DNA of 64,000 nucleotides, taken from Isoperla grammatica (taxonomy: Eukaryota > Arthropoda > Insecta > Plecoptera > Perlodidae). The notes below the pieces were generated by a model. That model was given only the letters and a program-made list of their open reading frames with translations. It was not told the origin of the DNA and made no database searches. Shown here piece by piece: positions 46,601 through 52,600 of this stretch; position 1 is the first letter of the stretch; each line of letters opens with the position of its first letter. A program made the translations under genes and the position numbers. The stretch is taken from contig OX246744.1 of assembly GCA_945910005.1 (NCBI GenBank), positions 3,250,017 to 3,314,016 on the forward strand, in the 5' to 3' direction.

Positions 46601-49600
46601 TAGTTTACAGGTGGCCGGTTCCTGCTTGTCCTTCCACTTGTCTCTCTGCTCCAAACAAATGCCCTCCAACCTCGCAAGTCCAGTGTCGAGTACCTACGTC
46701 GATAGAGACTAGATAGTGACGACGGCCGTGTGTTGTTTGCGCTCGCAGGGTCTGCAAGGACGGAGGCGAGCTGCTCTGCTGCGACTCTTGCACGTCGGCC
46801 TACCACACGTTCTGTCTCAATCCGCCGCTGCCGGAGATACCCGACGGAGACTGGAAGTGTCCGCGATGTTCGTGTCGCCCCCTACCGGGTAAGTGATCGC
46901 TCCGTTGTCATATTAATTCTCTGATGTAAAATAATCATAAAATATATGATAGTTGATAGAGTATACTTTGCGCCAAGTTAGTAGAGCACTTTCTACGCTC
47001 AATAGGGCTCGAGAAAGCGCTCTCCTAACTTGGCGCGAAGTGTACCCCACTAGTATGATGTCCTGCCCTTTTGCCTGCCATTGTGATATGTGCTTCTTCT
47101 TCTTTGCACACAAGGCAAGCTGCACAGGCTTGACTTAGCCAATCCTACTTTGTGCAGAGGCTTACCCAGCAAGTCATGCCCTGTTTCCAGTCTAAACTGG
47201 GAGGAGATCTTTCTGATTTTATCCGTCATTAAATTCACCTACAGAGTGTGCTGGCATCATGACTCCATTCTCTAGTTCCCATTTCTACAGCATATATACA
47301 TATATATAATATATACATTAAAATCATACACAGAGGGCGCTGGTGTCATGACTCCATTCGTTAGTTCCCGTTTTACCGCTTGAGTGTGTATTGCAACTTT
47401 TAACCACGAATATCTGAGTGGTTTTGTCTTGTTTGTTTTCGTTTGTTACTATACTCTTCCACGACTTGTCCTTTGCATCCTCCCACTTCTTCTGCACGTA
47501 CTTCCTTACAACAGATGTTAGATGGGAATTAACTGCCTTATGAGACAATGCCTTCTCAGTTTGTTGCAATTTACTGCCCCTCTTTGCATCTTGTGAATGA
47601 AGTCTCCAGCTTGGTAGAATAGAGATGTACAATGTGTGCGCGTGTCTGCAGGCAAGGTGCAGAAGATCCTCACCTGGCGCTGGAAGGAGACCAAGGACCA
47701 GCCGGTGAGGGACCCGATGACGGAGGAGCCCTCCACATCCAAGAAGCCCCCCAGACAGCCGCCCCGACAGCGAGAGTTCTTTGTCAAGTGGCACGAGAAG
47801 TCCTTCTGGCACTGCGACTGGGTGTCCGAGATACAGGTGAGGGGGAAATCTGGAACAAAAATGATCGTGACAACGAAACAATAATTTCATAATTTTCGTT
47901 CCAAGCATCTTACGTCTTTTTAATTTAATTTATTGATATCAAAGGGACATTATATACATTGTATTTGTACATGTATGGCATAACTGCAACTACTATATTA
48001 CACGACATATATTTAATGTAGGCCTACTACAACTAATACTAATGGATATATTTAACAAATAATACGACAAAATAACGTAATTAATGCAATTTCAAGAAAT
48101 GCAAGGGATCTGACAGAAGAGCAGGAATTTAGATTTGTTAGTCATTGGGATCACAAAAAATTCTTTTAAAGTGTAGAATGCTTTTGCTAAGAGAAGCTTT
48201 ACAGTCTACATTTAATGAGTGCAAGAGAATGAGTCCTTTGCCGGTTGCGGAAGTTTGTTGTAAATATTACATACAGGTACTACGTATAGGTGGGTTGGGC
48301 TGTGATTGAATTGTTACTGACGTACGTTTGTGCCCGTGCGCAGATGGACGTGTTACGTATAGGTGGGGTGGGCTGTGATTGAAGTGTTACTGACGTGCGT
48401 AGATGGACGTGTTCCACCCGCTCATGTATCGCTACCACATCCGCAAGTACGACATATAGGTGGGGTGGGCTGTGATTGAAGTGTTACTGACGTGCGCAGA
48501 TGGACGTGTTCCACCCGCTCATGTATCGCTACCACATCCGCAAGTACGACATATAGGTGGGGTGGGCTGTGATTGAAACGTTACTGACATACGTCTGTGC
48601 CCGTGCGTAGATGGACGTGTTCCACCCGCTCATGTATCGCTACCACATCCGCAAGTACGACATATAGGTGGGTAGGGCTGTGATTGAAACGTTACTGACA
48701 TACGTCTGTGCCCGTGCGTAGATGGACGTGTTCCACCCGCTCATGTATCGCTACCACATCCGCAAGTACGACATATAGGTGGGGTGGGCTGTGATTGAAA
48801 CGTTACTGACATACGTCTGTGCCCGTGCGTAGATGGACGTGTTCCACCCGCTCATGTATCGCTACCACATCCGCAAGTACGACATATAGGTGGGGTGGGC
48901 TGTGATTGAAACGTTACTGACATACGTCTGTGCCCGTGCGTAGATGGACGTGTTCCACCCGCTCATGTATCGCTACCACATCCGCAAGTACGATATATAG
49001 GTGGGGTGGGCTGTGATTGAAGTGTTACTGACGTGCGCAGATGGACGTGTTCCACCCGCTCATGTATCGCTACCACATCCGCAAGTACGACATATAGGTG
49101 GGGTGGGCTGTGATTGAAACGTTACTGACATACGTCTGTGCCCGTGCGCAGATGGACGTGTTCCACCCGCTCATGTATCGCTACCACATCCGCAAGTACG
49201 ACATATAGGTGGGTAGGGCTGTGATTGAAACGTTACTGACATACGTCTGTGCCCGTGCGCAGATGGACGTGTTCCACCCGCTCATGTATCGCTACCACAT
49301 CCGCAAGTACGACATATAGGTGGGTAGGGCTGTGATTGAAACGTTACTGACATACGTCTGTGCCCGTGCGTAGATGGACGTGTTCCACCCGCTCATGTAT
49401 CGCTACCACATCCGCAAGTACGACATATAGGTGGGTAGGGCTGTGATTGAAACGTTACTGACATACGTCTGTGCCCGTGCGTAGATGGACGTGTTCCACC
49501 CGCTCATGTATCGCTACCACATCCGCAAGTACGACATATAGGTGGGTAGGGCTGTGATTGAAACGTTACTGACATACGTCTGTGCCCGTGCGTAGATGGA

Positions 49601-52600
49601 CGTGTTCCACCCGCTCATGTATCGCTACCACATCCGCAAGTACGACATGGACGACCCGCCGCGCATGGAGGAGCCCGTCGACGAGATGGATTACCGGATG
49701 AAGAAGATCCGGGAGGCCGGAGCCGACGACCCGGAGCTGGAGGAGAAGTATTACAAGTGAGTGGTGACACCGCGTGAATGCTAACGATGCGTTTGAAAAT
49801 GGTGACGATTCCATGACGACTTAGACCCCCTTTACCCCAACTTAAAGTAAATGATGTGGAATCAAGTGTAGAGTAAACTATTGCTGAAAGTTAAATTAAA
49901 GAAAATTATCTCGATTCATTTCATAGACAACAACAATATGCAAATATACCAAATTATTTATAAAATTATTGTTTCTTAAAGTTTTTGTCATAGAAAAATT
50001 GTATTTTTGCAGTGAATTTTACGAATTAAGGCGGTTTTTTTGCATTGTCGGTTGTTTTAGCAAGAAGAGGCGTTAAATATCTTGTATTAAAAGCGGCGTA
50101 GACTGACATATTTGCATTTAACAACACTGCAGAGGCTGATGAGATTGTCGTGTGTGTGTCTTCAGGTACGGCATCAAGCCCGAGTGGATGATCGTCCAGC
50201 GGATCATCAACCACCGCACGATGCGCGACGGCCGCACGCTGTTCCTGGTCAAGTGGCGCGACCTGTCCTACGACCAGGCTACGTGGGAGGAGTCCCAGGA
50301 CGACATACTGGGCCTAAAGCAGGCCATAGACTTCTACCACGTGAGTCACGACATTCGCTTGGACGGAAGCCGCGTGGCTCACGATAACCGGAGTGTTTTT
50401 TTATAGTATAAAATCGAAATGAAATGTGGTTTAATCTGAATCAAATTAATTGCTTGATTTTTCAATAAAAATTATTTTAAAAAATTTATTTAGGTAAGTA
50501 ATAAAAAGTGCATTGCATTGTTTGTGTGCTCAAATTGGCACCTTTTTTCTTGTTGATTTATCTCAAAAAAAATGATGATTTGTGGATTCCCCTTCATTTG
50601 TTTCTTAAAGGGGTTCTCACCCGCTACCCCAAAAAAATATGTTTAACTAAGGCTGATTAGCTATGAAATTAGCGACTAAATGAAAAGAAATCGGGTTCAC
50701 CATAACCCGGGAAAAAAATATCAAAGTTAGTGATTTTCGAGCTAGGTCCCATCGGCGAAAATCTCCCATAAGAAATAGCATTGGGACGACCTGTATGCCT
50801 TGGGACCTTGCAGGATTCTGCTCCAAAAAAAAAATGATGTAATACTTTTCGCTGCGTCTTTCTTTTCTGCGTATTTCGTATATTTTGGTTTTGTAATCGG
50901 AGCTTCCGTTCAGGTACAAAATAAAGATGTGTAATCGGGTGCTCCATTTCGTTTTGAGCGTTGCTGTGCGTTGCTGTGCACGTCGAGTCGGCGGGTGTCG
51001 ACTGTCGAGTTGGTGTCAAGTAAGCCAAGCGAGAGAGAGAGAGAGAGAGTGAGTAGTATTGGGAGGGGAAATAGTCAACGCATGCACAATGAACGCGGTC
51101 TGCTATGCGGTGTCGAATGGAGTACACCAAGGCCGTCTATTTTTTTTTAGATATATCGTTTCGAGTACACTCGCACCAAAAGCCGGCTGACACCAACAGT
51201 CGCCGCGGCAGCTAACCAGAAATTTCATTAATAAATAACAATTCACAGGTTTCAACTCACGATGTTTAATGGTTCATTATCGATTGGTGTGGTGCAGAAG
51301 ATCATATGGTAAAAAATAAATCTAGCGGGTGAGAACCCCTTTAATGAGAAATCCATTTCTGATTTGTTTCAAATGTAGACCCGTCTCGGCCCGGGGTAGA
51401 ATAGGCCCAGAGTGACTCTGCTAGTCGTGAGAGGCGACGAAAGGAGACCCTGTCCCTTTTCCCGCCCCACTGTCCCACTGAAGATATCTCCTTCCACATG
51501 GCCCCGCCCTCCCTTGCTGGACTCACCTTATGACCACTCCCGCGATATAGATGGACCTGATTCAGAAGACGTCGTATGACCTAAGCTGTCGAGTACGTCG
51601 TTAAACACCACCAATCATTATTATCAAATCAAGATTCCCAACTTCTAATACAATATTCCAAGTTGGTGGGAAGGATAGGAAGGAACCAACAGCTTATCTT
51701 TCCTCCACCTTCGTCGGGTGATCAAGGCCACGTCAGGCCGAAACTGTCTCGACGTTTTGTATATATCTTTTTTGTGTTTCTATCGACTCCAAAGGTGGCA
51801 ACTACTACAAGGTAAGCTGTTGGTTCCTTCCTAGATCCTTCCCCCCAAGCTCAAACCTAGCCGTTAAGCAAACTTACACAAATTCACAATATTCCAAGTT
51901 GATGATTTTTTAATTTAAGTTACTTAACTTGAACTCGTATTGTAACTGTCAGGACCTGCGAGCGCTGAACAACCTGGACGGCAAGAAAGGCAAGAAGGGC
52001 AAGGGCAAGCGCACCAAGACGCAGGAGCTAATGGACGAGGACGGCAACCGCCTTCCCAAGCGTTACACTCCGCCTCCCGACAAGCCGATGACAAACCTGA
52101 ACAAGAAGCTGGACAAACAGCCCGACTACATCGACCTCACCGGCATGCAGCTGCATCCATACCAGCTGGAGGGTGAGTGGGAGTCTCGTTACGAGCTGGG
52201 GGTTATACCGTAACTCAGAGTTGACGTGGCAATAGATGATGATGATGGAAGTGAAACGTGTTAAGTTTCGCCCTGGAAGTAATGCTTTTTAGTTTTCACT
52301 TACTAGGCAGGTAGGCCACACACTCAATGAAGCCTGCATCGGAATCTACAGTCTGATTAAAATTTAATTTGTGACGAATGTAATCTCTACCGTTGACCTC
52401 AGAATCGTAAAACTAATTTTAACCCCTCAACGACCAAGCTTGTAATGGTTTATTGGTTATTTTGTTATAAAGGCAATTTTTGTAAAGACTTAAGACTGTA
52501 TGGAGTATACTAGATGAGCTCTAGTGAATAGGGGACGACTCGCGACCTTTTTCTCCCCGTATTGACTGACATCTTCCGTGTGTGTCCAGGTCTGAACTGG

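Follow-up and report, generated by a model that had tools for sequence, protein, structure and literature searches.

Two exon-edge minisatellites in the Mi-2 gene of Isoperla grammatica with decoy splice sites predicted to be mostly skipped

Which splice site would be chosen where the start of a coding exon is preceded by a row of its own copies? This question is raised by a 64,000-nt stretch of the genome of Isoperla grammatica (Plecoptera; assembly GCA_945910005.1, contig OX246744.1, positions 3,250,017 to 3,314,016), hereafter the window, which carries exons of the gene for Mi-2. The original prediction, made from the sequence alone, described an array of potential poison exons in front of one of these exons. 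Here, the region from 47400 to 50400 was inspected letter by letter, and tandem repeats were listed over the whole window. The gene was found to hold two minisatellites, each repeating an exon edge together with its splice site (arrays 1 and 2). We consider it likely that the decoy copies are for the most part skipped, through the pairing of nearest splice sites, with some leakage into transcripts that are probably destroyed.

The identity of the gene as Mi-2, proposed at the outset, was confirmed. All of the listed protein-search matches (the best 120 of 6777) were Mi-2 proteins or unnamed relatives; the top ranks were taken by stick insects, a cockroach, orthopterans and a termite. Using cockroach and Timema proteins, 26 coding exons (the first and the last partial) were mapped by tblastn, and a frame-keeping GT-AG model that used the outermost array copies joined them into 1367 codons with no stop. 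In this model, the intron 42596-42983 was picked by hand (tied score), as was the acceptor at 54426, for which an alternative 3 nt downstream scored 2 higher. All 25 modelled introns are at least 279 nt long. The model protein matched 11 Pfam families, including CHDNT, PHD (two stretches), a single Chromo, SNF2, Helicase_C and DUF1087. In a tree of 31 rows, it grouped with seven polyneopteran proteins with a support of 100, the order inside this group not being fixed; the best identity among the rows was 84% (Periplaneta), and no close relative was present among them. The exon whose start is repeated, originally labelled exon 13, is the 12th recognised in the window.

Array 1 consists of the 3′ end of an intron and the first 53 nt of the exon that starts at 49596, tandemly repeated; this block is no chance match. 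A truncated copy at 48344 is followed by 11 full copies (Table 1) and then by the genuine start, with spacings, in order, of 59, 97, 111 (four times), 97 and 111 bp (five times). The predicted 11 full copies and one short copy at 97- or 111-bp spacing were thus borne out, with a first spacing of 59 bp. The array also stood as a block, while its predicted limits of 48283 and 49656 were moved to a measured start at 48286 and a last shared exon base at 49648, after which the exon continues GGACGACC. Of the 12 copies (the genuine one included), 11 agree in all 53 shared exonic nt, and the copy at 48944 differs by one synonymous C-to-T change. A branch-point-like motif, CTGAC, lies upstream of the acceptors; in the copies at 48403, 48500 and 49041, a 14-bp deletion leaves a gap of 9 nt, not 23, between this motif and the exon. 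The nine internal spacers of the 111 type show a mean of 1.5 and a maximum of 3 pairwise differences, and five substituted spacer positions as well as the 14-bp deletion are common to several copies, in mosaic order. At the left edge, the truncated copy has a CAG acceptor with 11 nt of exon, and the spacer differs from the nine internal ones at 5-6 of 58 positions.

Two further observations concern this array. Within 48286-48402, the breakpoints of the truncated copy and of the next spacer almost coincide on the intron side (ATAGG / ACGTATAGG) and differ on the exon side, a picture that repeated breakage of the intron-side TACGTATAGG would give. In addition, 49596-49648 codes for residues differing from the LMIRNYMRKYD of the Timema, Bacillus and Periplaneta Mi-2 proteins, and these substitutions lie within the repeated segment.

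As the original prediction had stated, every one of the 11 full decoys is in frame from the preceding exon to the same TAG, which is followed by GTGGGG (6/11) or GTGGGT (5/11). A product derived from a decoy would end after residue 556 of the model, before the Walker A motif at residue 745, so that the ATPase would be missing, again as foreseen; the stop was originally placed inside chromodomain 1, and the sole Pfam Chromo match (residues 601-651) lies downstream of it. The full copies descend from one fusion, and their length of a multiple of three and their ending in TAG therefore count as one observation rather than eleven. The length itself has no bearing, as the stop lies ahead of the donor.

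A second exon-edge array, missed by the original prediction, lies in the same gene. It holds eight copies of a unit at 92-bp spacing, made up of the final 78 nt of the exon with the Walker A motif, its donor and GTACGTACCTAG; copy one coincides with the end of the exon itself, and the other seven lie in the intron. Reading through the first donor gives VRT and then a stop. One exonic site varies (CTG/CTC, synonymous, with C in three of the eight copies), and three further variable positions each differ in the last copy only. Compared with the window, the 26 exons yielded extra copies of the two array exons only, besides 15-19-nt low-complexity matches for four exons. The array 2 donor is the second weakest of the 25 modelled donors. 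The location of both arrays at weak sites (the weakest acceptor and the second-weakest donor of 25) was noticed post hoc, and no connection is claimed.

How, then, would the protein-keeping sites be selected? The arrays, the frames, the stops and the site strengths relative to 25 introns are the grounds in hand, from which we infer the origin of the repeats, the choice of site, the aid from G-runs and the tolerance of leakage. The repeats may have begun as a short tandem duplication that spanned an intron-exon edge, with later unequal exchange and homogenisation. Under exon definition, the two sites nearest to each other across an exon would be paired and the decoys mostly passed over; array 1 would then be spliced at its last acceptor and array 2 at its first donor, in each case the site that preserves the protein. 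G-runs possibly help: there are two behind each of the 12 array 1 decoys (24 in 1249 nt, compared with 111 in 17604 nt of the 23 other introns), and 49596 is the only genuine acceptor among 25 with two G-runs within 60 nt upstream. The analogy here is the human CBS 844ins68 allele, in which G-runs reportedly steer splice-site choice. Finally, a leak could be tolerated because the wrong choices run into a stop codon and would leave their transcripts to nonsense-mediated decay (NMD). An excerpt of PMC2809761 argues that NMD shelters imperfect splicing in this way in Drosophila introns.

By analogy, we read both arrays as the kind of repeat known in amphioxus as a "mirage", here in a polyneopteran insect. 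The amphioxus mirages (Adh3, BflGb6, BflGb9 and TnC, with PGBD5 similar) are likewise head-to-tail exon-edge repeats with a splice signal, acceptors as well as donors, and share with the Mi-2 arrays near-identical units, a diverged edge unit and an intact main reading frame. According to excerpts of PMC3087553, they occur at both kinds of edge, the BflGb6 repeat covering an intron 3′ end and an exon 5′ part in units of 150-160 bp and the BflGb9 repeat an exon 3′ boundary; the same excerpts describe cluster edges that escape homogenisation, and present Adh3 data and globin reverse transcription PCR that suggest splicing undisturbed by the repeats. The Adh and TnC mirages generate no aberrant mRNAs, as stated in an excerpt of PMC3902484. 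In Mi-2, the unit crosses an exon-intron boundary in both arrays, and array 1, the one compared in this respect, has homogenised inner units with an edge unit left out. The differences are that the host is an insect and not a lancelet, that two arrays lie in one gene, and that array 1 has 11 full decoys compared with six and three units in two BflGb6 haplotypes; moreover, unlike in amphioxus, each full decoy of array 1 has an in-frame stop and a good donor. Length variation between individuals is a hallmark of mirages, whereas the Mi-2 arrays are known here from one assembly. Our literature searches found mirage repeats in lancelet papers only, and no insect report was met in them.

The human CBS gene offers a likeness to each array. 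The 844ins68 allele is a 68-bp duplication of the intron 7/exon 8 junction in which the distal site is spliced (excerpt of PMC2630376, which writes "donor", whereas the title of the work cited there names 3′ splice sites). Like array 1, it sets one splice site behind another, both accompanied by a piece of the exon, but it has one extra copy rather than eleven. The CBS 31-bp variable number tandem repeat (unit c.1444_1467+7) resembles array 2 in running from exon into intron and in including the donor side, with a unit of 31 bp instead of 92 bp. It is present in 16-21 copies in the population (excerpt of PMC2630376), and the title of a work cited there reports an association with reduced CBS activity.

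Several findings weigh against the skipping of the decoys. Splice matrices were built from the 25 modelled (not sequenced) introns, the tested site being excluded from the matrix that scored it and 20 nt being taken for acceptors. The genuine acceptor at 49596 was the lowest of the 25, with T at -3 where the other 24 have C; it ranked weakest at pseudocounts of 0.25 to 1 and second weakest at 2 and 5. By comparison, five of the 12 decoy acceptors scored higher (48344, 49152 and 49263, all CAG, plus the deletion copies 48500 and 49041), six were identical over the 20 nt, and one scored lower. The initial claim that the 12 extra acceptors equal the real one in quality therefore holds cleanly for nine (the six identical and the three better CAG sites) and not for the three with the 14-bp deletion, two of which still outscore the genuine site. 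The decoy donors scored 8.6, a value exceeded by 13 of the 25 real donors, or 10.6, exceeded by seven of them; among 1114 intronic GTs in the 23 other introns, 10 equalled or exceeded GTGGGG and two GTGGGT, and the GTGGG core also occurs in five of the 25 modelled real donors. By matrix score these donors are of good quality, and their use is a prediction from sequence. Taken together, the weak genuine acceptor and the strong decoy donors speak against fully clean skipping, and leakage into poison exons is credible. Furthermore, transcription reaches all array 1 decoys before the genuine acceptor, an order that would favour the decoys if splicing were first-come. Masking of the decoys by local RNA folding was also considered, and found unsupported in five segments (z-scores from -0.43 to +1.80).

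Could the decoys be functional? They resemble poison exons, in that an extra exon has an in-frame stop and its inclusion would send the mRNA to decay. Known poison exons are usually single, conserved and regulated. Of the original prediction, the tuning of dosage by a working poison-exon array is so far unsupported: we regard it as unlikely that regulated inclusion of decoys sets the Mi-2 level via NMD with a strength given by copy number, although this would fit the shared in-frame stop of all 11 full decoys, the donors matched or beaten by so few other intronic GTs, and a genuine acceptor that is the weakest of 25 and alone has T at -3, the left-edge copy having CAG. The donor-side array and five non-exonic arrays in the window point to a general repeat process, and the amphioxus mirages are reportedly silent (excerpts of PMC3087553 and PMC3902484). 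Purifying selection on the exonic part of the decoys was also rejected, this part being not significantly less variable than the spacer (1/53 versus 5/58, p = 0.21). Nor is any conservation known, a statement that rests on protein patterns and is silent on the introns of relatives. When extra copies of the repeated stretches were sought in the homologue proteins (the same best 120 of 6777), each of three patterns matched at most once per protein. GLGKT[IV]Q was present once in each of the 120, which says nothing about the introns of those species, and an MDVFHP-type pattern, likewise silent on introns, once each in 13/120, which makes it weak evidence because so few matched. A further version is that of a self-expanding array, in which a minisatellite that captured an acceptor serves as a copy-number rheostat for an essential chromatin remodeller: the working TAG acceptor would be maintained as the gene's weakest (the left edge of the array having CAG), added decoys would divert more transcripts to decay, and the Mi-2 dose would vary between individuals with array length. 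This we likewise hold to be unlikely.

Very unlikely is an assembly or slippage artefact, in which a true locus of one or a few copies was multiplied by the assembler. The units are indeed highly identical, and an excerpt of PMC3087553 states that one amphioxus mirage was aberrantly assembled in the draft genome. Nevertheless, spacer substitutions and the 14-bp deletion are shared in mosaic order, the left-edge copy is diverged, the units differ between the two arrays, and the G/C variant of array 2 is present in 3/8 copies. We argue that the shared variants and the diverged left edge probably reflect turnover among several true copies and speak against pure stutter; the exact copy number of the arrays may be wrong. 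Least probable is that introns and exons are being gained here. Each full unit has an acceptor and an AG/GT donor, tandem or mirage duplication has been proposed as an intron source (excerpt of PMC3087553), and in Drosophila NMD has been proposed to protect weak introns that are newly formed (excerpt of PMC2809761). Against this, the introns between copies would be only 54 or 40 nt compared with at least 279 nt for the 25 modelled ones, and the in-frame stop in each full unit of array 1 means that no duplicate keeps the frame and that, in its present form, no unit can become part of the coding sequence.

The two exon-edge arrays are among seven long-period minisatellites in the window (6427 bp in total, 10%). 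The remaining five, with units of 59 to 304 bp, are non-exonic and all fall within the initial 23 kb, ahead of the recognised Mi-2 exons. A special attraction of repeats to exon edges was considered and is not claimed: a 100-bp unit placed at random in the gene would hold an exon edge in 19% of cases and two of two would do so in about 4%, a comparison made post hoc. Four frames with an ATCKLC-like motif were also seen in or near Mi-2 introns (39112-39471, 45929-46162 and 46298-46693 on the minus strand, and 61344-61742 on the plus strand). They resemble the end of a retrotransposon reverse transcriptase, and Pfam searches with three of the four gave one weak match below the cut-off (zf-RVT, 39115-39471).

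Table 1 Positions of the repeat arrays, their copies and the adjoining Mi-2 exons in the window.
Feature	Position	Strand	Details	Source
Minisatellite	740-1338			tandem-repeat listing
Minisatellite	8372-9021			tandem-repeat listing
Minisatellite	11436-12470			tandem-repeat listing
Minisatellite	18809-20237			tandem-repeat listing
Minisatellite	21490-22103			tandem-repeat listing
Exon preceding array 1 (originally exon 12)	47652-47836	+	donor CAG/GTGAGG at 47836	gene model
Array 1	48286-49648	+	111-bp and 97-bp units	sequence, tandem-repeat listing
Truncated left-edge copy	48286-48354	+	acceptor CAG, 11 nt of exon	copy location
Decoy 1	48403-48459	+	TAG stop, donor GTGGGG, acceptor TAG, 14-bp deletion upstream	
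Decoy 2	48500-48556	+	TAG stop, donor GTGGGG, acceptor CAG, 14-bp deletion upstream	
Decoy 3	48611-48667	+	TAG stop, donor GTGGGT, acceptor as genuine	
Decoy 4	48722-48778	+	TAG stop, donor GTGGGG, acceptor as genuine	
Decoy 5	48833-48889	+	TAG stop, donor GTGGGG, acceptor as genuine	
Decoy 6	48944-49000	+	TAG stop, donor GTGGGG, acceptor as genuine; sole exonic substitution (GAC to GAT)	
Decoy 7	49041-49097	+	TAG stop, donor GTGGGG, acceptor CAG, 14-bp deletion upstream	
Decoy 8	49152-49208	+	TAG stop, donor GTGGGT, acceptor CAG scoring above genuine	
Decoy 9	49263-49319	+	TAG stop, donor GTGGGT, acceptor CAG scoring above genuine	
Decoy 10	49374-49430	+	TAG stop, donor GTGGGT, acceptor as genuine	
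Decoy 11	49485-49541	+	TAG stop, donor GTGGGT, acceptor as genuine	
Genuine exon (originally exon 13)	49596-49756	+	acceptor TAG, donor CAA/GTGAGT	gene model
Walker A exon (GLGKT)	52590-52729	+	donor TTG/GTACGT at 52729	tblastn, gene model
Array 2	52652-53385	+	8 copies of 92 bp	tandem-repeat listing, copy comparison

What would mostly silent mirages in Mi-2 mean? A dozen near-identical acceptors, with the full decoys leading to a stop, amount to a natural experiment in the choice of sites by the spliceosome, the rules at issue being the first site transcribed, the one nearest to the donor or the one scored best, and the eight donors of array 2 in the same gene provide the mirror experiment. 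If the arrays are mirages, the known range of these repeats extends from lancelets to an insect, and an unstable repeat would be able to act directly on a chromatin remodeller's output.

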